Shown here: positions 6,413 to 14,592 of the stretch, one piece after another | Numbering within the stretch: the stretch's first letter is position 1 | Layout: every line of letters begins with the position of its first letter | DNA from: a virus | Direction: 5' to 3' (one strand) | DNA: 20,833 bases | Virus record (IMG/VR): IMGVR_UViG_3300048066_000133 | Location: 1-20,833 of that record | Position numbers and translations under genes: made by a program | Notes under the pieces: generated by a model | The model's database searches: none | The model's input: only the letters and a program-made list of their open reading frames with translations | What the model was told of the DNA's origin: nothing

Positions 6413-7291
6413 ATGGCTAGACAAATTCTCAATACTGGCGGTGCTGCTAACGACGGTAAGGGCGATACCCTTCGAAACGCCAGTCAAAAAATAAATGACA
6501 ACTTTTCAGAACTATATCACCTAATCTCCTTGGGAAAAGGCGGTGATGGTCTATCTCTCGAAGAACTAAAGTCATTAGTCGAAGAAGAAGTAACCGAAGC
6601 ACTGCAAGATGTGGGTTTAGAAGGTGGCAACGCTAACGTACTTTTGTATAAAGGGTATGATGCAAAGACCCTACCTTCGGAAGAAGACATCTCTGTGGAT
6701 TCTACATACACCTTTGAAACCGGAACAATAGTAGAGACAGACACTAACAGTCCAGACATCAATGGATGGTCTATCAATCTTCCGGTAACTCAGAGATATG
6801 TGTTTCTGAAAAAAGTGGTACTTCACGCAAGTGAACCTACTAAGACTATCGCGCCTAGTGATTGGTCCAGTTCGGTTCTAGCGTATGATCGTGGGGGTGT
6901 CGCCGACTTAGATGTCGATATAGTAGCACCTAATGGAAACATCTTCCGGAACGATGTAGGTGAGACGGAAGTAAAAGCGGTAATCACTGCTGATGGGGTA
7001 GAAATATCACCATCGGAATATACCCAATTTGATTATGAATGGACAAGTGGCGGTGTACCTGTCTGTGTCCATGCAACAACAAGATACGTTTCTCACATCG
7101 ATGGTAACATTATAGTTGTGGGTTCGGATGGTACATGTCCCATAGGTTATGGTGTTCCCGCCACTAACTCTGGGGAAACAAACAACTTTCCTAACGGAGA
7201 GTTGAAATCAATTTTCATCGAAGCGCAGGCGGTTCCTAATTCTGGGACTCTACCTTTGCAACTAACAATTAACGATAAACAAGAGGATTAA
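6413..7291 (+). CDS. Baseplate/tail-fibre connector with gp10-type N-terminal motif
   Basis: 292 residues. The N-terminus (1-36) carries the motif of T4 gp10 and related peripheral baseplate or fibre proteins: ILNTGGAANDGKGDTLRNAS then QKINDNFSELY. This module is commonly found at the virion-proximal end of fibres. A short acidic coiled coil follows (48-66). Residues 70-170 include a Trp-rich beta region (INGWSINLP, APSDWSSSVLAYDRGG) that resembles the region just before the collagen repeats in the gene at 8523. Residues 175-292 look like an Ig-type beta sandwich (NIFRNDVGETEVKAVI, DYEW) that reappears in the next gene. It probably attaches fibre material to the wedge; identity with gp10 is not established beyond the motif. 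It starts after a late promoter. Confidence 0.82.
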   Translation: MARQILNTGGAANDGKGDTLRNASQKINDNFSELYHLISLGKGGDGLSLEELKSLVEEEVTEALQDVGLEGGNANVLLYKGYDAKTLPSEEDISVDSTYTFETGTIVETDTNSPDINGWSINLPVTQRYVFLKKVVLHASEPTKTIAPSDWSSSVLAYDRGGVADLDVDIVAPNGNIFRNDVGETEVKAVITADGVEISPSEYTQFDYEWTSGGVPVCVHATTRYVSHIDGNIIVVGSDGTCPIGYGVPATNSGETNNFPNGELKSIFIEAQAVPNSGTLPLQLTINDKQED

Positions 7292-7293
7292 AC

Positions 7294-8496
7294 ATGGCTC
7301 TTAGAACGGCAACGGCCGCGATAACCCTAACGGACTTGGCCGATGGTCAGAGTTCCGTAACTGCGTTCTTGACTAACGAAAACCACACCTTCGCAGCGAA
7401 TGATGCGGGTGTTGTATCCGATGCGACAAGACGCGATTTTGGATGTTCTGTAAAAGTGTTCGTTGGTGGAACCGAACAGGCATTCACTACAGGTTCTTCC
7501 CCAGCGGAAGGTTTCTTCACAATAGGTGTTCTTACCGCAGTAAGTGGTTGGGAGTTCCTAGTAGCACAATCAGTAAACACAGATATTGGTGGTGGTATAA
7601 CTAAAAATGCTGGTGTTATCTATGCAGACGCAATTGGTACACCTAATTCAGCTATCATCATTGTACCTGTCACATATAACAATGGTGGTTCAGTTGGTTC
7701 ATTCAACCTAGAACTTTCTGTAAACCGTATTCAGGACGGTGCTGGTGGTACAATCATTACTTTGATTCCATCTAGCCAAATGTTCTCTGCTGATGCAGAT
7801 GGTAAGTTATTACCAAGTCAGAATTCGAGTACTATTTTGTTCGACATCGCTGGTTCGCCAGGTGCACTTGTTTATGAAACATCACTAGACGGCGCATCAT
7901 TCCAAGCTCAGAGTGCATCCACAAACAATGCTGGTGGTATTGCTGGTTTCGACAATGACGATTCTGGTTCATTCACTACAGGTACATTACCTACATCAGC
8001 AACTACTGGTGCTCGACTAGAGATCAAACCAGCCAACATTGGTGATGCTAACTCAACTCTTACAGTTCGTGTAAGTGGTGAACAGGGTAAAGATGCAGTA
8101 ACTTTCAGTAAGGTACGTGCAGGTCGTGCAGCGATCTACGTTGAGATCGAAAACGATCACCCAACCATCTTCAAGAATAACACTGGTTCTCCAGTAACTG
8201 CAACTGCTAAAGTATATGACGCAAACGACGGTAGTCTAATCAGTGATGGTGTCGGTGGCGCAACAGTAGAATATGATTGGAAATGGGTAACTGGTCAACA
8301 GGTATATGTTGGTTCAACTGACCTAGAAGTTCAAACAGACTCTTCTGGTACTCCAGTATCAACTGGACGTTCTGCTAACGGCGGTTCAGGTGCAGGAGAA
8401 ATCAACACATCTTCAGTAATCATTGGTCCATCTGACATTCCAGACACAGGTGCTCCAATCAGTGTTCGTTGTACTGTAACAGTAACTACACCATAA
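7294..8496 (+). CDS. Beta-rich tail-fibre/adhesin-like protein with C-terminal Ig-like domain
   Basis: 400 residues, 2 bases after the preceding stop, with a good ribosome site (AAGAGG, 7281-7286). Not assignable to a T4 gene. The N-terminus (TATAAITLTDLADG) is similar to the start of the collagen gene ([14 protein letters not shown]), suggesting a shared attachment strand. A middle segment, NRIQDGAGGTIITLIPSS (about 149-166), then Ser/Asp/Gly-rich strands, is reminiscent of phage host-specificity and fibre proteins that carry Ig-like decorations. The C-terminal ~125 residues (HPTIFKNNTGSPVTATAKVY, VEYDWKW, final strand ISVRCTVTV) match in pattern the C-terminal domain of the preceding gene. 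Codon use changes near base 7565: GCG and ACG become rare and Gly is nearly always GGT, unlike the first 270 bases. No Cys-rich or membrane segments. Confidence 0.78.
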   Translation: MALRTATAAITLTDLADGQSSVTAFLTNENHTFAANDAGVVSDATRRDFGCSVKVFVGGTEQAFTTGSSPAEGFFTIGVLTAVSGWEFLVAQSVNTDIGGGITKNAGVIYADAIGTPNSAIIIVPVTYNNGGSVGSFNLELSVNRIQDGAGGTIITLIPSSQMFSADADGKLLPSQNSSTILFDIAGSPGALVYETSLDGASFQAQSASTNNAGGIAGFDNDDSGSFTTGTLPTSATTGARLEIKPANIGDANSTLTVRVSGEQGKDAVTFSKVRAGRAAIYVEIENDHPTIFKNNTGSPVTATAKVYDANDGSLISDGVGGATVEYDWKWVTGQQVYVGSTDLEVQTDSSGTPVSTGRSANGGSGAGEINTSSVIIGPSDIPDTGAPISVRCTVTVTTP

Positions 8497-8522: not shown

Positions 8523-11129
8523 ATGACAACGCTAACTGCCAGCGCACAAATAACGTTTACGGACATAAATGACGCTGCCGGATATGAGTCTATCTTCACT
8601 AGAACCGTTAATACAATACTTGACGCTGATGATTTTCTATCTTCGCAACTTCCAAGTAACTCATGGGGTTATGGTGTCCCTTCACCAAATGGTGGTTCTA
8701 ACGGAATAACGTGGACCACCAATGGTGAAAGTCTAAGTGCCGCTTTCCCTATACTATGGGAATGTAGGAGAAATATTGTAGGTACACCTAGTGCAGGCGA
8801 TTCGGTCGCTGGGCAGTGGGCTGAACCTACAATTATTGGTGTTGCTGGTGGTACGGGTGGAACAGGACCAACAGGACCATCCGGACCGATGGGAAGAACT
8901 GGTACTCAAGGACCTCAAGGTACGCAGGGTATTGACGGACCAACTGGTTTACAAGGACCAACAGGTACTCAGGGACCAGTCGGTACGCAGGGTCTTGTTG
9001 GACCTACTGGTACACAAGGTCCGGTTGGTACTCAGGGTCCACAAGGTACTCAAGGTATTGACGGACCAACTGGTATTCAAGGACCTACAGGTACACAAGG
9101 ACCTCAAGGTACTCAGGGTCTTGTTGGACCTACTGGTACACAAGGTCCGGTTGGTACTCAGGGTCCACAAGGTACTCAAGGTATTCCTGGCCCGTCCGGA
9201 ACTCAGGGACCAGTCGGTACGCAAGGTCCTCCAGGCACACAGGGTATTGCCGGTCCAACTGGTATTCAAGGTGTAACCGGAATAAGTGGTACACAGGGTC
9301 CACAAGGTACTCAAGGAATTCAGGGACCTACAGGTACACAGGGACCAGTCGGAACACAGGGTCCACAAGGAACACAAGGCATTGCCGGTCCTACTGGTTT
9401 AGCGGGTACACAAGGTCCACGTGGTTCTCACGGTATCCAAGGTATTACGGGACCAGATGGAAGTCGTGGTCCTACAGGTTTTCAAGGTGTAACCGGACAA
9501 AGTGGTACACAAGGACCTCAAGGTACTCAAGGAATTCAGGGACCTACAGGTACACAAGGTCCCGTTGGTACTCAAGGACCAGTCGGTTCTCAAGGTCTTC
9601 AAGGAACAATAGGACCAAGAGGTTCTATCGGACCTAGGGGTCTAACAGGTAATCGCGGTTCTCAGGGACCACGTGGTTCTAGAGGTTCAGTTGGCCCAAA
9701 AGGTACAGTTGGACCACGTGGTACTATCGGTCTAACTGGTTTACAAGGACCAACAGGCATACAAGGTACTCAGGGTGTTACTGGACTAGCCGGAACTTCG
9801 GGACCAAGAGGGTCTCAGGGTACTCAAGGTCCTAGAGGAACAAGAGGTACAGTAGGTCCATCTGGCCCAAGGGGTCAACAAGGTTCTAGAGGTACAATTG
9901 GTCCACGCGGTACACAGGGTCCACAAGGTACAGTTGGACCTAGAGGTTCACAAGGAACAAGAGGTACAGTAGGTCCAAGAGGTTCACAAGGAACAAGAGG
10001 AACACGCGGACCATCCGGACCACAGGGTACTCAAGGTCCTAGAGGAACAAGAGGTACAGTGGGACCAAGAGGTACAGTGGGACCACAGGGTTCTCAAGGT
10101 CCACGAGGAACAGTTGGTTTACAGGGTACTCAAGGTCCTAGAGGTACAGTGGGTCCAAGAGGTTCACAAGGAATACAGGGAACAGTGGGCCCTCGCGGTT
10201 CACAAGGAACAAGAGGCACACGCGGTCCATCCGGTCCACAAGGTTCTCAAGGTCCTAGAGGAACACGCGGTACTATAGGTCCTAGAGGTACAATCGGTCC
10301 ACAAGGTACACAAGGACCTAGAGGTACACAAGGTACAGTGGGTCCAAGAGGAACAAGAGGTACAGTGGGTCCACAAGGTACGCAAGGTCCTAGAGGAACA
10401 AGAGGTACAATCGGTCCTAGAGGTACGATTGGTCCCCAAGGTACACAAGGTCCTAGAGGAACACGTGGTACAATCGGTCCTAGAGGTACAATCGGTCCGC
10501 AAGGTACTCAGGGTCCACGAGGTTCACAAGGTACAATCGGTCCTAGAGGTACAGTGGGACCACGTGGTTCGCAAGGTACAAGGGGTCCTCGTGGAACACA
10601 AGGCACACGCGGTCCATCCGGACCACAGGGTTCTCAGGGTCCTAGAGGTACACGCGGTACAGTGGGACCAAGAGGTACAGCTGGACCACAGGGTTCTCAA
10701 GGACCTAGAGGTACACAAGGTACAGTGGGACCACGTGGTACGCAGGGATTGACCGGAACTATTGGACCATCGGGACCAATGGGTGCTGCGGGTAACGCTA
10801 TTGTATTTGATACCGACGCCGATGTCAACTCGGATACTGGATCAAACTCTAAGTCAGACCTTATCAGACAGTTCCGTGGTAATAACGAAGTATTGAATAA
10901 TGACGTATATTGGCACGTTCAAACTGGTCGAGTGTATCAGTATCAAGGTACTAGTATCAACAGTACAGCAGACGTGACATTTACCGAACTTACACGATCG
11001 GATGGTGGATTCCTAAATTTCAGTGCTATCCAGAGTGCATTCGCTAGTGGTTCTGAAATGAGATTTGAAAGTGATAGAATCTCAATCCTTGCAGGCAGTA
11101 CCGTGAGGGTTCGTTTAGGTAGACTATAA
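8523..11129 (+). CDS. Collagen-like tail fibre, about 217 Gly-X-Y triplets
   Basis: 868 residues with a ribosome site AGGAAG at 8512-8517. Three parts are visible. Residues 1-105 form a small beta-rich head ([41 protein letters not shown]), probably the attachment end. Residues 106-757 are Gly-X-Y in unbroken register (217 triplets plus the closing Gly). Residues 758-868 form a non-collagen tip ([28 protein letters not shown]; a final strand STVRVRLG) that may seed trimer folding or bind the receptor. Up to about residue 362 the repeat is rich in GPT, GTQ, GPV and GPQ; after that Arg dominates (GPR, GTR). In the whole repeat I count two Y-position Pro, one Lys, three Asp and no Glu. Pro sits almost only in X. 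A triple-helical rod is expected from the pattern. The following hydroxylase and transferase genes suggest it is modified. Confidence 0.93.
8988..9185 (+). repeat. 126-base-period direct repeat inside the collagen gene
   Basis: Bases 8988-9059 are identical to 9114-9185 (72 bases, offset 126). The flanking ATTGACGGACCAACTGGT at 8931 and 9057 has the same offset, so a 14-triplet unit was duplicated. Confidence 0.85.
9265..9558 (+). repeat. 216-base-offset direct repeat inside the collagen gene
   Basis: The block starting TTCAAGGTGTAACCGGA at 9265 recurs at 9481, offset 216 (24 triplets); 9306-9340 and 9522-9556 are identical over 35 bases. The same 216 offset separates two CCATCCGG blocks at 10011 and 10227. 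Confidence 0.75.
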
Positions 11130-11132
11130 ATA
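11125..11132 (+). promoter_or_regulatory. T4-type late promoter between collagen and hydroxylase genes
   Basis: TATAAATA, exact late box. Its TAA (11127-11129) is the stop codon of the collagen gene. A transcript would be expected to begin near 11138 and would meet the intrinsic terminator at 11158-11180 almost at once. Confidence 0.65.
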
Positions 11133-11157
11133 TCCATGTGAGTAAACTAATACTATA

Positions 11158-11180
11158 GGGGGCTCCGGCCCCCTTTTTTT
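11158..11180 (+). terminator. Intrinsic terminator after the collagen gene
   Basis: GGGGGC, loop TCCG, GCCCCC, then seven T. The perfect 6-pair G/C stem is closed by a C(UCCG)G loop, a UNCG-type stable tetraloop, and the T run follows directly. It ends most transcripts from the fibre gene and probably lowers expression of the modification genes downstream. Confidence 0.93.
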
Positions 11181-11192
11181 ATGGAATATATA

Positions 11193-11831
11193 ATGCACAA
11201 AATATATAAGAATTTTCTTACCCATGATCATGCATGGGACCTTGCCTGCTCAATCGACTCGACACCTTCAAACTGGTTTGAACTCGCAGTCAATACTTCT
11301 GACACTAAAGAACCTTTGTCGATATCACGAAATGTCGGCGGGTATCGTAAGAGATTCGATTACGAGAACTCGATCCGAAAAGATATCGTTGGTGGGCGAT
11401 TTGCCTATCAATTCCACAAAACTACACCACATGTGATAGGTTGTGAGTGTTGGGAATGTACGTTCAAGAAAGACGTTTTGATGTCAGATAACTTTCGCGA
11501 TTTTCTAGTGAAAGAGACATCTCTAACCAACCCTGTCCTAGATGAATCTTTCACTTCCGCATATTATCCAAAAGACTTTTTGGGTCAACACCAAGATGAT
11601 CGGAGAGGTATCGCCTTTATATTCCATCTCTCTTGGGATTGGAAACCAGAATACGGTGGACTGTTTCACGTAGAAAGTGAGAAAGGATTCAATACCTATG
11701 TGCCTGGATGGGGAGACTTGGTGCTTATGGAACTGGGTGAGATAGGACACAATCACTTTGTTTCGGAAGTGTCTGAATACGCACCAAGACCTAGACTGGC
11801 AATATCAGGTTGGTTCAGTGATGAAGAATAA
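11193..11831 (+). CDS. 2-oxoglutarate/Fe(II) oxygenase, prolyl 4-hydroxylase-like
   Basis: 213 residues from the ATG at 11193. An in-frame ATG at 11181 sits directly on the terminator T run with no ribosome site; 11193 has GGA (11184-11186) upstream and is preferred. The enzyme family oxidises a substrate C-H bond using Fe(II), O2 and 2-oxoglutarate. All ligands are visible: His133 and Asp135 (GQHQDD), the distal His188 (HFVSEV) and Arg201 (PRLAISGWF), the usual 2-oxoglutarate anchor. YGGLFHV (154-160) is the GG-strand of the prolyl-hydroxylase-like group and GDLVLME (174-180) precedes the distal His. It lies right after a collagen-like fibre gene, so hydroxylation of that fibre is the natural guess, but T4-like marine phages carry several 2OG oxygenases and the substrate is unproven. 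It overlaps the next gene by 11 bases. Confidence 0.88.
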   Translation: MHKIYKNFLTHDHAWDLACSIDSTPSNWFELAVNTSDTKEPLSISRNVGGYRKRFDYENSIRKDIVGGRFAYQFHKTTPHVIGCECWECTFKKDVLMSDNFRDFLVKETSLTNPVLDESFTSAYYPKDFLGQHQDDRRGIAFIFHLSWDWKPEYGGLFHVESEKGFNTYVPGWGDLVLMELGEIGHNHFVSEVSEYAPRPRLAISGWFSDEE

Positions 11832-13107
11832 TGAAAGATTGCCATTGATGTATCACGACGGAGATAGGTGGAGAAACTATTCCGTATATAATAAAGAGAA
11901 TCACAACGTAGGCATATTCGCAGGGTGTGGACCTTCTCTGAATGAAGTCGACCTTAGTGTCTTGAAGGGTGCTGGGAAAACAGTCCTTTCCATCAATACA
12001 ACGTACCCAACCCTGAAACCAGATATCTGGATGGGTATGGACGACCCCACATGTTATGACGAACGAGTATATGCAGAATCATTTCCCAAACTACTCCGTG
12101 GCGGATTTCAGAACCATGAGTTAGAAGGTAGAACACTCAAAGAATATCCCAACACATACTTCGCGAGTATAGAAGAAGTGGAGTTAGTGGACCGTCATAG
12201 AATATTTGAATGTTCTTTACCAAAATCAGAAACGTTTGTCTGGCACAAGAACAGTTTCGCAATGGCCATGAACGTCATGTTGTACATGGGATTCAAAGAC
12301 ATATACCTTCTTGGGGTCGATTTGTCAACAGATAAACTAAATTATTTTGACGGTCGAGAGTTGACTCAGAAAGAGATTGACTGGAACATGAATCTGTATG
12401 ACTCTCTTTATGGTTACATCGAATGGTTCTCTACAGAATGTGCAAAGATTGGTGTGACTATACATTCTTTGAGTAAGGATTCACGCATCAATGATATCGT
12501 TGATTATGTTTCACTCGAAGAACTCAATGAGTCCCTCGCGCCTCGTATACCCAAGACCACCGAACTAGTACATTCGTCTAAACATGGTTTCGACCTAATC
12601 AGTGATGAGTACAAGAAACTACTGCAACACGAACACGAAAATAGTGAGTGGGGAGTCAACGCTGGATGGGCAGCCGATAAACTACATGAATGGTTGATGT
12701 CTCATGGTGCAACCGAAGTGTTGGATTATGGATGCGGACAGAGTAGTTTCCGAAAGAACATTCCGGTGAAGGGTCACTACAATGTGTTTGAGTACGACCC
12801 CGGCATTTCCGGCAAAGATACCTCACCCGAACCGAGAGACTACTTGATATGTATTGACGTACTAGAACACGTCGAACCAGACCTTCTCTATAATGTACTG
12901 GAAGACCTTGAACGAGTAATCAAGAAAAAGGGGTATCTGACGATTGCAATGTACCCCGCTAGGAGGATATTGAAGGACGGTCGAAACGCACACCTTATTG
13001 TCAAAGATTCTTTCTGGTGGATTACTAAACTGAGAGAACACTTCAATATATTGAGTAGTAAACAAAATGGTTTGGAACTAAATGTGGAAGTCGGACCGAA
13101 ATTCTAA
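11821..13107 (+). CDS. Two-domain enzyme: DUF115-like Rossmann domain fused to SAM methyltransferase
   Basis: 428 residues from ATG 11821; the frame is open further upstream (ATG 11758) but that would lie deep inside the hydroxylase. N-terminal domain (about 28-230): GIFAGCGPSL (31-40), INTTYPTLKPDIWMGMDDP (58-76) and NSFAMAMNVMLYMGFKDIYL then LGVDLS (144-169) match the DUF115/MptE-like fold found in flagellin-modifying Maf proteins and related to sialyltransferase-like enzymes. C-terminal domain (280-428): VLDYGCGQSSF (300-310, SAM motif I), an acidic EYDPG (324-328) and CIDVLEHVEPD (344-354) are class I methyltransferase motifs. Together with the preceding hydroxylase this looks like a pair acting on the neighbouring collagen fibre, by transferring a sugar or methyl group, or on a carbohydrate. 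The substrate is not shown by the sequence. Confidence 0.85.
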   Translation: MKNNERLPLMYHDGDRWRNYSVYNKENHNVGIFAGCGPSLNEVDLSVLKGAGKTVLSINTTYPTLKPDIWMGMDDPTCYDERVYAESFPKLLRGGFQNHELEGRTLKEYPNTYFASIEEVELVDRHRIFECSLPKSETFVWHKNSFAMAMNVMLYMGFKDIYLLGVDLSTDKLNYFDGRELTQKEIDWNMNLYDSLYGYIEWFSTECAKIGVTIHSLSKDSRINDIVDYVSLEELNESLAPRIPKTTELVHSSKHGFDLISDEYKKLLQHEHENSEWGVNAGWAADKLHEWLMSHGATEVLDYGCGQSSFRKNIPVKGHYNVFEYDPGISGKDTSPEPRDYLICIDVLEHVEPDLLYNVLEDLERVIKKKGYLTIAMYPARRILKDGRNAHLIVKDSFWWITKLREHFNILSSKQNGLELNVEVGPKF

Positions 13108-13173: not shown

Positions 13174-14592
13174 ATGCCAGCTATAGTAAGACACCCAATG
13201 GGCAGAGATATGGCGAAGACTCTACTAGAGGACGTTAAAGTATCTGCCGCAGAATCTTCTACCAACGAATATTATATCGGTATTGGTAAGTCCGATGTAT
13301 TCAATACGTCTGATTCTGTTATCGATCCAGTGGATTCACCAAGGGATGAACGAGAGTTTCGACTAAACCTACAATCTATCAAAAAGGTTGAAGATGCAAT
13401 TTTTGTCGCCAAGCGAGTGAACTGGTCATCTGGTACAATCTATTGTGGATGGGACGATGCAACTGACCCAGAACACACACCATCATGGTACGTCCTCAAC
13501 GACGCAAAAGAAGTGTATGTTTGTCTAGAACCAGGCAGATCACTGGACGGTACATCTAAACCATCGATGGTAGACCCTAACTGGGGACTATATGCCCCAA
13601 TGAGTCCTCAGACAGACCCAAACAATCCTGAGTATGATCCTAACCATCGAATGTTCAATGTAAGAGAGTGGTGGAAAGAGTTCAAGACTTCGGACGATTA
13701 TGTCTGGAAGTTTCTATACTCTATAACTCCAGAGAATATCTACCAGTTCCTATCATCAAACCATATCCCAGTACAAGAACCAGAAGATAGTCTACCACTA
13801 GGTGACAACATTGAAGACCTACAATGGATGGTAAAGGATACGGCAGTAGGTGGTCAGATTATTGACGTGCATGTCGTTGACGGTGGTTCCGGATATACCT
13901 CTGAACCTACAGTTGAGGTTGTGGGTAATGGTGCGAACGCTACAGTCCAAGTGCATCTTGTCGATGGTGTGATAAAAAGAGCAACCGTAACTTCATATGG
14001 TGCTGGTTATCAGTACGCGTCTCTTCACATTCAGGGCGGTGGTGGTCTTGGTGCCGTACTTCGTCCGGTCATCACTGGACCTAACGGTATTGGTTATGAC
14101 GCTATAGATGATTTGAAAACAAGTTCGGTCCTAATGAACATCAAACCAGACGGTGATGTCAATGGCACATTTACCGTTCAGAACACTTTCCGTCAAATGG
14201 GTATTATAAAGAACCCTAAAGAAGTTGACGGAACAACACCTTACGCCGGAGTTTCGGTGATGACATTACCTTCACTTACTTTGACGGGAACTTCTCCTTT
14301 CGCAGTAGGTGAAAAGATAAGAGGACTCACTTCCGAAGCGGTTGCTTACGTAGACAAATCGGATGGTAATGTTGTACACTATCACCAGAATGAATCTACA
14401 GGTTTCAAAATATTCCAGAATGAGACCGTCGAACAAGTTGGTATCAGTGGCGTAGAATCAGAAGTGCAATTGAACTCGAAGAAGAATGGCATCGATCGAT
14501 TCACTGGTGAAGTACTATATATTGAGAATCGTTACAGAATTCGTCGTGACGAAGAACAACAAGAAGATATAAAGATTGTAATAACCGTTTAG
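13174..14592 (+). CDS. 8: Baseplate wedge protein gp8
   Basis: gp8 is a dimeric wedge component that links gp6/gp7 to gp10. Family signatures appear in order: EYYIGIGKSD (32-41), the KKVEDAIFVAKRVNWSSGTI segment (70-89), SWYVLNDAKEVYVCLEPG (104-121) and DDYVWKFLYSI (174-184). At 472 residues it is longer than T4 gp8 (334). The extra material includes two tandem beta units at about 225-285: VVDGGSGYTSEPTVEVVGNG with the following AtvqV strand, and VTSYGAGYQYASLHIQGGG. This glycine-tyrosine-proline module recurs in many phage structural proteins. The rest resumes a beta-rich fold ending near GEVLYIENR. It is separated from the other wedge genes by the fibre and modification block, and is 8 bases upstream of the giant gene. 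Confidence 0.88.
   Translation: MPAIVRHPMGRDMAKTLLEDVKVSAAESSTNEYYIGIGKSDVFNTSDSVIDPVDSPRDEREFRLNLQSIKKVEDAIFVAKRVNWSSGTIYCGWDDATDPEHTPSWYVLNDAKEVYVCLEPGRSLDGTSKPSMVDPNWGLYAPMSPQTDPNNPEYDPNHRMFNVREWWKEFKTSDDYVWKFLYSITPENIYQFLSSNHIPVQEPEDSLPLGDNIEDLQWMVKDTAVGGQIIDVHVVDGGSGYTSEPTVEVVGNGANATVQVHLVDGVIKRATVTSYGAGYQYASLHIQGGGGLGAVLRPVITGPNGIGYDAIDDLKTSSVLMNIKPDGDVNGTFTVQNTFRQMGIIKNPKEVDGTTPYAGVSVMTLPSLTLTGTSPFAVGEKIRGLTSEAVAYVDKSDGNVVHYHQNESTGFKIFQNETVEQVGISGVESEVQLNSKKNGIDRFTGEVLYIENRYRIRRDEEQQEDIKIVITV

Follow-up and report, generated by a model that had tools for sequence, protein, structure and literature searches.

A collagen-like fibre and its probable modifying enzymes as a proposed exchangeable module among the baseplate genes of T4-like phages

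The IMG/VR virus record IMGVR_UViG_3300048066_000133 (20,833 bases, analysed over its whole length and referred to here as the window) holds baseplate genes of a marine T4-like phage. Among them stand three genes which raise the question whether a phage that builds a collagen-like fibre also encodes the enzymes that modify it. The trio, all on the plus strand, comprises the fibre gene (8523..11129; 868 amino acids), a gene for a 2-oxoglutarate/Fe(II)-dependent (2OG) oxygenase resembling OGFOD1 (11193..11831), and a gene for a 428-residue fusion of a glycosyltransferase-like half with an S-adenosylmethionine (SAM)-dependent methyltransferase (GT-MT; 11821..13107). Pfam and PHROG matches give the gene order as gp6-like, wedge protein, gp9/10-like, orf7294, trio, gp8, which bears out the initial annotation of the window in that the trio interrupts the baseplate order between the fibre connectors and gp8. 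The explanation favoured here, to which we assign a probability of roughly 0.78, is that this slot takes up an exchangeable module consisting of a collagen-like tail or baseplate fibre and enzymes acting on it. That the cassette modifies the fibre appears very likely from the comparisons below; its chemistry is what we infer.

Residues 106–759 of the fibre form one unbroken run of 218 Gly-X-Y triplets (about 217 had been noted initially), 83 of them with proline, flanked by an N-terminal and a C-terminal domain; the match to Pfam Collagen has an E value of 2e-99. A long unbroken Gly-X-Y run with much proline marks the protein as collagen-like, and it presumably adopts a triple helix in the virion. 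Chance origin of the repeat was rejected, the longest Gly-X-Y run in 50 base-shuffled windows being 4 triplets. Position X is dominated by Pro (82) and Thr (79), and position Y by Gln (81), Arg (51), Val (24), and Thr (23), with only 2 Pro and 1 Lys; 82 of the 84 repeat prolines are thus in X. The C-terminal domain (∼110 amino acids) is common to other collagen fibres and found 40 IMG/VR loci in a scan; no match to it was found in annotated phages. The 2OG and GT-MT genes recur with 100% identity in three further IMG/VR contigs (L008, L009, and L004), where the same fibre gene adjoins them (complete in L008, its end in L009 and L004). Because these contigs carry the same genes, the trio is not an assembly accident, and an artefact of this kind was rejected.

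The oxygenase belongs to its superfamily by its match to PF13661 (E 4e-13; 50.1 bits, cut-off 27) and contains the complete H-x-D...H iron triad and the 2OG-binding arginine. The positions named at the outset, His133, Asp135, His188, and Arg201, are correct when translation starts at ATG 11193; counted from the start of the 216-residue open reading frame (ORF; 11181-11831) they are 137, 139, 192, and 205. ATG 11193 is the likelier start because relatives start there and because the T run of a terminator-like hairpin coincides with the ATG further upstream. In a profile search of PDB, the best match was OGFOD1 (2e-6), with which all four catalytic residues align. The second (0.24) was 4iw3, named "putative uncharacterized protein", which we take to be a prolyl hydroxylase, so that the closest solved relatives would both be of this kind. 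OGFOD1 has been described as a prolyl 3-hydroxylase (PMC4396695). The likely substrate would be the prolines of the repeat; that the enzyme hydroxylates proline in position X is a tentative assignment, which we hold at slightly less than even odds.

The fusion protein is less uniform in its affiliations. Its C-terminal half is a methyltransferase domain (PHROG 24759, 8e-20; Methyltransf_23 at 25.7 bits, just under the cut-off of 27, and at 30.3 bits in the homologue of locus L035) and contains VLDYGCGQSSF, of which VLDYGCG is presumably methyltransferase motif I, as in class I SAM-dependent methyltransferases. The N-terminal half matches PF01973 (MptE-like; the former DUF115) at 0.0012 and 19.1 bits, with a cut-off of 34.6 (29.5 bits in the L035 homologue), PHROG 4603 at 2e-4, and, weakly, structures of CST-II-type GT42 sialyltransferases (0.03–0.06). 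This half is glycosyltransferase-like at best, with a resemblance to PF01973 and GT42 and not membership, so that of the "DUF115-like plus SAM-methyltransferase fusion" first proposed, the methyltransferase stands and the family assignment of the other half does not. That the fusion adds a methylated sugar is an evenly balanced proposition. The ORF finder lists the gene from TTG 11758; its start was taken as 11821, and, as the oxygenase gene ends only beyond this point, joint translation of the two enzymes is probable.

Whether enzymes of this type follow collagen, or merely populate the region, can be read from the same slot in other phages, which is the genome-neighbourhood survey that the initial annotation had called for. 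The gp8-like baseplate wedge protein (13174..14592, plus strand; PHROG 438, 4e-73; 61% identical to gp8 of Phage C48C1, L013, Kyanoviridae), the downstream boundary of the slot, served as a bait blind to collagen. The best 80 of at least 569 relatives in IMG/VR, the window, and C48C1 gave 82 loci. Eight whose fibre is cut off or could not be classified were set aside (L090, L092, L109, L116, L121, L122, L125, and L126; a cassette gene with the fibre out of view is present in L090, L109, and L116, and the other five show none). In the 74 judged, one or two modification-type genes lie between fibre and gp8 in 21 of 21 collagen loci versus 0 of 53 non-collagen loci. Enzyme presence thus follows collagen in 74/74, which supports a functional link. 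Cassette genes were recognised by queries from collagen loci; in L120, the one non-collagen locus with unmatched genes in the slot, Pfam gave a tail assembly chaperone and no family for two others. When the domain family DUF6445, whose enzymatic role is putative, is left out of the count, 20/21 remain, as only L091 relies on it alone.

Dereplication at 95% gp8 identity, which removed a contig identical to the window here (L089) and merged L104/L011 with L096 despite their differing cassettes, left 12/12 versus 0/40 (Fisher p 4.8e-12, a value that ignores kinship). On the gp8 tree, the collagen state changes 6 times, at least 5 of them on branches with good support, and each time the enzyme state changes in step; independent pairs were concordant in 5/5 cases (sign test p 0.0625, the minimum attainable with five pairs). 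Four rows scored as "no collagen" (L094, L095, L106, and L114) have a fibre ending at the contig end, with 527–1076 amino acids visible. L119 and L123 share gp9/10 and a relative of orf7294 with the window; their fibre is not collagen-like, and they have no enzyme. In C48C1, the stretch fetched contains no collagen, and no gene is annotated between the fibre connector and gp8.

The cassettes that accompany collagen at this slot are not of one type. Besides 2OG plus GT-MT (the window and the L010 kind), there are GT-MT alone (L035), DUF6445 alone (the L032 kind), DUF6445 plus a GT2 glycosyltransferase (the L044 kind and others), and a relative of PF05159 glycosyltransferases (L115). DUF6445 keeps an H-x-D...H...R order similar to that of 2OG enzymes, and this order alone argues for a 2OG fold: its PDB profile matches were no better than E 0.26, to other proteins, and hhalign gave no match to the 2OG profile. 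The variety is informative where two phages differ in little else. L096 and L104 are 96.7% identical in gp8 and 98.8% in orf7294, and their cassettes, DUF6445+GT2 and 2OG+GT-MT, respectively, are unrelated; their fibres are 67% identical in the N-terminal parts and 34% in the C-terminal domains. The C-terminal domain of the L096 fibre is 75–78% identical to those of L110 and L113, both with DUF6445+GT2. Because the backbone is nearly identical and fibre C-terminus and cassette both differ, the end of the fibre and the cassette appear to move together. Genes related to DUF6445 were also seen in other settings: those of Syn9 (L168), P-SSM2 (L169), and S-SSM7 (L167) lie among 2OG oxygenase or glycosyltransferase genes, and their annotation as "minor coat protein" is doubtful; in Synechococcus phage DSL-LC02 (L172), a Thr-rich collagen-like protein is encoded near an FkbM methyltransferase-radical SAM protein and a DUF6445 protein.

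Searches starting from the enzymes gave a corresponding picture. With GT-MT as the bait and collagen ignored, collagen was found upstream in 8/8 loci from about four lineages, either directly or before the 2OG gene; regular occurrence of the two enzymes without any collagen-like gene, named at the outset as the observation that would speak against the idea, was not found for the pair. Between the window (11821-13107) and L010:10001-11287, synonymous divergence (dS) of GT-MT is 0.25, while gp8 and 2OG are saturated, and therefore GT-MT alone was recently transferred between two phage lineages. The 2OG bait found 26 loci; in the window's own group (at least 57% identity), collagen is present in 8/9, the ninth (L023) beginning inside the gene, and it is also present in L183 and L197–L199.

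The association extends beyond the gp8 slot. The query for the fibre C-terminal domain (A2) had been built from 2OG-bearing loci; in the 40 loci it found, 38 of which have visible downstream sequence, the next gene encodes 2OG, DUF6445, a glycosyltransferase, or GT-MT in 34, or in about 9 of 12 lineages when counted by hand. It carries less weight than the gp8 survey because of its many near-copies (L044–L060) and the origin of the query. A locus of an unrelated, siphophage-like type, L006 (with a cut relative, L005), encodes a tail-tip protein (PF13550) ending in collagen, followed by a 2OG enzyme 57–58% identical to that of the window, ligands included, and then by a PF05159 glycosyltransferase; the collagen C-terminal domains are 39–40% identical to that of the window fibre. 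Other loci of the scan have DUF6445 + GT2 (L067, GT2 just under the cut-off), GT2 + PLOD (L061), or GT1 (L041). A DNA-pattern search for the repeat gave 24 stretches, part of which were examined: apart from loci found before, L073 has no enzyme by eye, L086 a glycosyltransferase, and L075 a gene starting like the PF05159 one. In L088 (2294-11121), also from this search and of another phage type, collagen-like proteins are followed by a 786-residue protein (a GT25 match, with GT1 and OGFOD2-like matches below the cut-off) and then by a 2OG oxygenase.

Enzyme type also tracks the composition of the collagen. Five named phages (S-PRM1 and S-CAM9, which infect Synechococcus, S-8S55, S-8S56, and the roseophage CRP-6), representing two or three lineages only, have collagens with 26–43% Lys in position Y and, by tblastn, a PLOD-type glycosyltransferase stretch downstream; Lys accounts for 0–14% of Y in the remaining 22 collagen loci with linked enzymes that were examined. 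Pfam recognises GT25 and GT_PLOD domains in S-PRM1 and CRP-6 only. S-PRM1 gp162 (L170:7326-9170) matches procollagen galactosyltransferase 1 (7e-23), the lysyl hydroxylase LH3 (4e-33), and R699 (3e-31), presumably a mimiviral protein, and its C-terminal part matches PDB 6ax6 (1e-9), which we take to be L230, a viral lysyl hydroxylase. Upstream of gp162 lie a Lys-in-Y collagen fibre and two 2OG genes; the layout is similar in L173, L174, and L176 and related in L171 (CRP-6). S-PRM1 thus displays the features of the animal-type collagen lysine pathway (Lys in Y; LH-, GT25-, and GT_PLOD-like parts). The window does not, having Lys in 1 of 218 Y positions and no LH, COLGALT, or PLOD domain in the trio by Pfam. 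We lean towards a wider proposal, namely, that marine tailed phages carry interchangeable collagen-maturation cassettes matched to the fibre sequence: OGFOD1-like oxygenase and glycosyl/methyltransferase for fibres with Pro in X, DUF6445 and GT2 for Gln-rich ones, and oxygenases with a GT25-PLOD-lysyl-hydroxylase-like protein for those with Lys in Y, the last being an animal-type lysine pathway in bacteriophages. L043 is an exception to the Lys-PLOD pattern, with 62% Lys in Y and no enzyme seen.

Several observations weigh against the proposed coupling of enzymes and collagen. In the sister lineage (L010:9373-10011, L011:653-1291, and L018:8004-8642), Asp139 of the 2OG protein is replaced by Lys and His192 by Asn (residues counted from 11181), and L035/L036 have GT-MT and no 2OG. 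Distant 2OG relatives (L189–L196; 29–39% identity, 49–51% in two short fragments) have no collagen in the available sequence, and in L185/L186 the only run, of 11 triplets, is on the opposite strand; in L184, L187, and L188, which are short contigs from the phage of L185, the available sequence likewise has no collagen. A tie to collagen is thus seen in the nearest part of the oxygenase family and not in the family at large. (No relative turned up when bacterial genomes were scanned twice with 2OG profiles, in searches limited to a few conserved peptides.) In Caulobacter phage CcrSC and Tetraselmis virus S20, the methyltransferase domain has sialyltransferase-like genes nearby and no collagen, and the relatives of DUF6445 in Syn9, P-SSM2, and S-SSM7 have no collagen in the 12–17 kilobases (kb) fetched. 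Downstream of collagen, L042, L043, and L065 have no recognised enzyme and L066 has one only four genes on. L061 has a PLOD domain and no Lys in its 19 triplets; AG-345-L05 (L175) has a PLOD-like stretch and no collagen in its 8.4 kb. Finally, the AlphaFold models of DUF6445 (A5) and GT-MT (A6) had mean predicted local distance difference test scores of 43 and 47, too poor for use in fold searches.

The first two of these points lend themselves to an alternative, in which the 2OG-like protein serves chiefly to bind the fibre during assembly, its catalysis can be dispensed with, and what counts is the transfer of the sugar (and methyl group) alone. The sister-lineage frame is still open, and the few changes between L010 and L018 are mostly synonymous (ratio of nonsynonymous to synonymous rates 0.06), so that the protein is probably kept there for something other than classical catalysis; because two iron ligands are lost, hydroxylation is not required in every such phage. 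However, no ligand is missing in the window lineage, the siphophage-like group, or L066, and many other cassettes carry DUF6445 with its similar order of residues. This alternative is unlikely.

Less likely still is that the enzymes are auxiliary cargo of a host-recognition island, which alter the host O-chain to exclude competing phages and lie beside the fibre by cargo collection. In polysaccharide synthesis, matches of the GT2, PF05159 (capsule synthesis), and GT42-like kinds are frequent, and glycosyltransferases and methyltransferases near structural genes without collagen do occur. The glycosyltransferases of pelagimyophages were read as altering the host surface by the authors of PMC7029224. 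But cargo collection predicts neither the contrast of 0/53 with 21/21 at the slot, nor the joint change of cassette and fibre C-terminal domain, nor domains resembling protein prolyl hydroxylases and COLGALT, PLOD, and lysyl hydroxylases. Modification of another virion or host protein (orf7294, gp9/10, or a ribosomal protein, the type of substrate on which the nearest solved homologue acts), with which the collagen-free distant 2OG relatives would agree, is similarly improbable, as orf7294 is near-identical in L096 and L104 despite differing cassettes, the collagen C-terminus changes with the cassette, and the siphophage-like collagen + 2OG loci gave no match to gp9/10, orf7294, or gp8.

If the slot holds a module of collagen-like fibre and modifying enzymes, as preferred here, the 2OG oxygenase would hydroxylate repeat residues in the host cell during or after fibre synthesis, most likely the prolines of Gly-Pro-Y; the fusion would transfer a sugar onto the repeat (Thr/Ser or a hydroxylated residue) and methylate the sugar or the acceptor, and the modified helix would then be assembled into the virion. 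The fibre as the substrate, the residues changed, the order of steps, and the benefit are what we infer; helix stability, or a sugar coat tuning receptor binding or resisting host proteases, are natural guesses for the last. Because the 2OG protein of the L010 kind has lost ligands and L035 does without one, the constant contribution may come from sugar transfer, or from binding, with hydroxylation optional. Thus, of the idea that the enzymes act on the fibre, their belonging with collagen has held up (in all 74 judged loci, in the joint change of the C-terminus, and in the siphophage-like recurrence). A fixed pathway of hydroxylation, then glycosylation or methylation, has not, given the ligand-less sister enzymes, GT-MT without 2OG, and the distant 2OG genes without collagen.

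Two further elements adjoin the module. Upstream, the slot is bounded by the gp9/10-like baseplate-fibre connector (6413..7291, plus strand; PF07880, E 1.7e-7; PHROG 677), and between it and the fibre lies orf7294 (7294..8496, plus strand; 400 amino acids), which matches no Pfam or PHROG family; by blastp it is 71–75% identical to its relatives in the collagen loci L032, L035, and L038 and 41–43% to those in L119/L123. By eye, orf7294 (7294-8496) and the fibre (8523-8840) have similar starts, ITLTDLADG and ITFTDINDA, perhaps a common anchoring domain. Between fibre and enzymes, a candidate terminator-like hairpin with a T run (11157..11182, plus strand) was found by consensus match; the region has 4 such elements versus 3.8 expected from shuffles. 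By eye, the gap between collagen gene and cassette contains a hairpin with a T run in L010, L018, L032, L035, and L115 and without one in L044, L110, and L006; it is unclear in L096 and L061, and none was seen in L093 or L112. Where the hairpin occurs, its sequence varies and its place is kept, and it may keep the enzymes scarce relative to the fibre.

The nearest precedent for a phage collagen with its own modification enzymes is mimivirus, whose collagen reportedly goes with the lysyl hydroxylase-glycosyltransferase L230 (Luther and colleagues, 2011, cited in PMC12220804). Another viral enzyme, the prolyl 4-hydroxylase of PBCV-1, is reported to have been described by Eriksson and colleagues in 1999 (cited in PMC9301287); it resembles the window enzyme as a viral 2OG enzyme hydroxylating proline in peptides and differs in belonging to an algal virus. 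Mimivirus hydroxylates and glycosylates its collagen, according to PMC8968730, and as in the phage module, collagen, 2OG oxygenase, and glycosyltransferase are all virus-encoded. However, it is a eukaryotic giant virus with lysine chemistry, whereas the window has an OGFOD1-like oxygenase, one Lys in Y, and a sugar enzyme of another family fused to a methyltransferase. OGFOD1 itself (PDB 4nhx) acts on ribosomal protein uS12 in eukaryotes (PMC4396695), and its solved chain has 562 residues, compared with 212 in the phage protein. Among prokaryotes, BclA of Bacillus spores is a glycosylated collagen, and a prolyl 4-hydroxylase of B. anthracis acts on collagen-like peptides in X and Y (PMC8968730); this again pairs a glycosylated collagen with a 2OG enzyme of the same organism, but in a spore protein and not a phage fibre. 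Collagen-like fibres are known from E. coli prophages (PMC3368898), and "triple collagen repeats" from the structural operon of pelagimyophages and cyanomyophages (PMC7029224); the repeat is in tail or baseplate proteins, as here, and the accessible portions of both articles do not mention a linked modification cassette. The literature searched, which covered few subscription papers, yielded no description of modification enzymes that a phage encodes together with its collagen.

Hydroxylated, glycosylated collagen is regarded as a speciality of animals (and giant viruses). If the reading given here is true, phages would be compact systems for making modified collagen in bacteria, by a maturation route properly termed phage-encoded and not "virion-encoded" as first worded. 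It would also account for at least some 2OG oxygenases of marine phages whose role has been puzzling; the use that viruses make of prolyl 4-hydroxylase has been termed "cryptic" (PMC9301287). Cultured cyanophages such as S-PRM1 or S-CAM9 would allow a direct test of the idea, and, if true, it would offer a fresh view on the origin of collagen-modifying enzymes.

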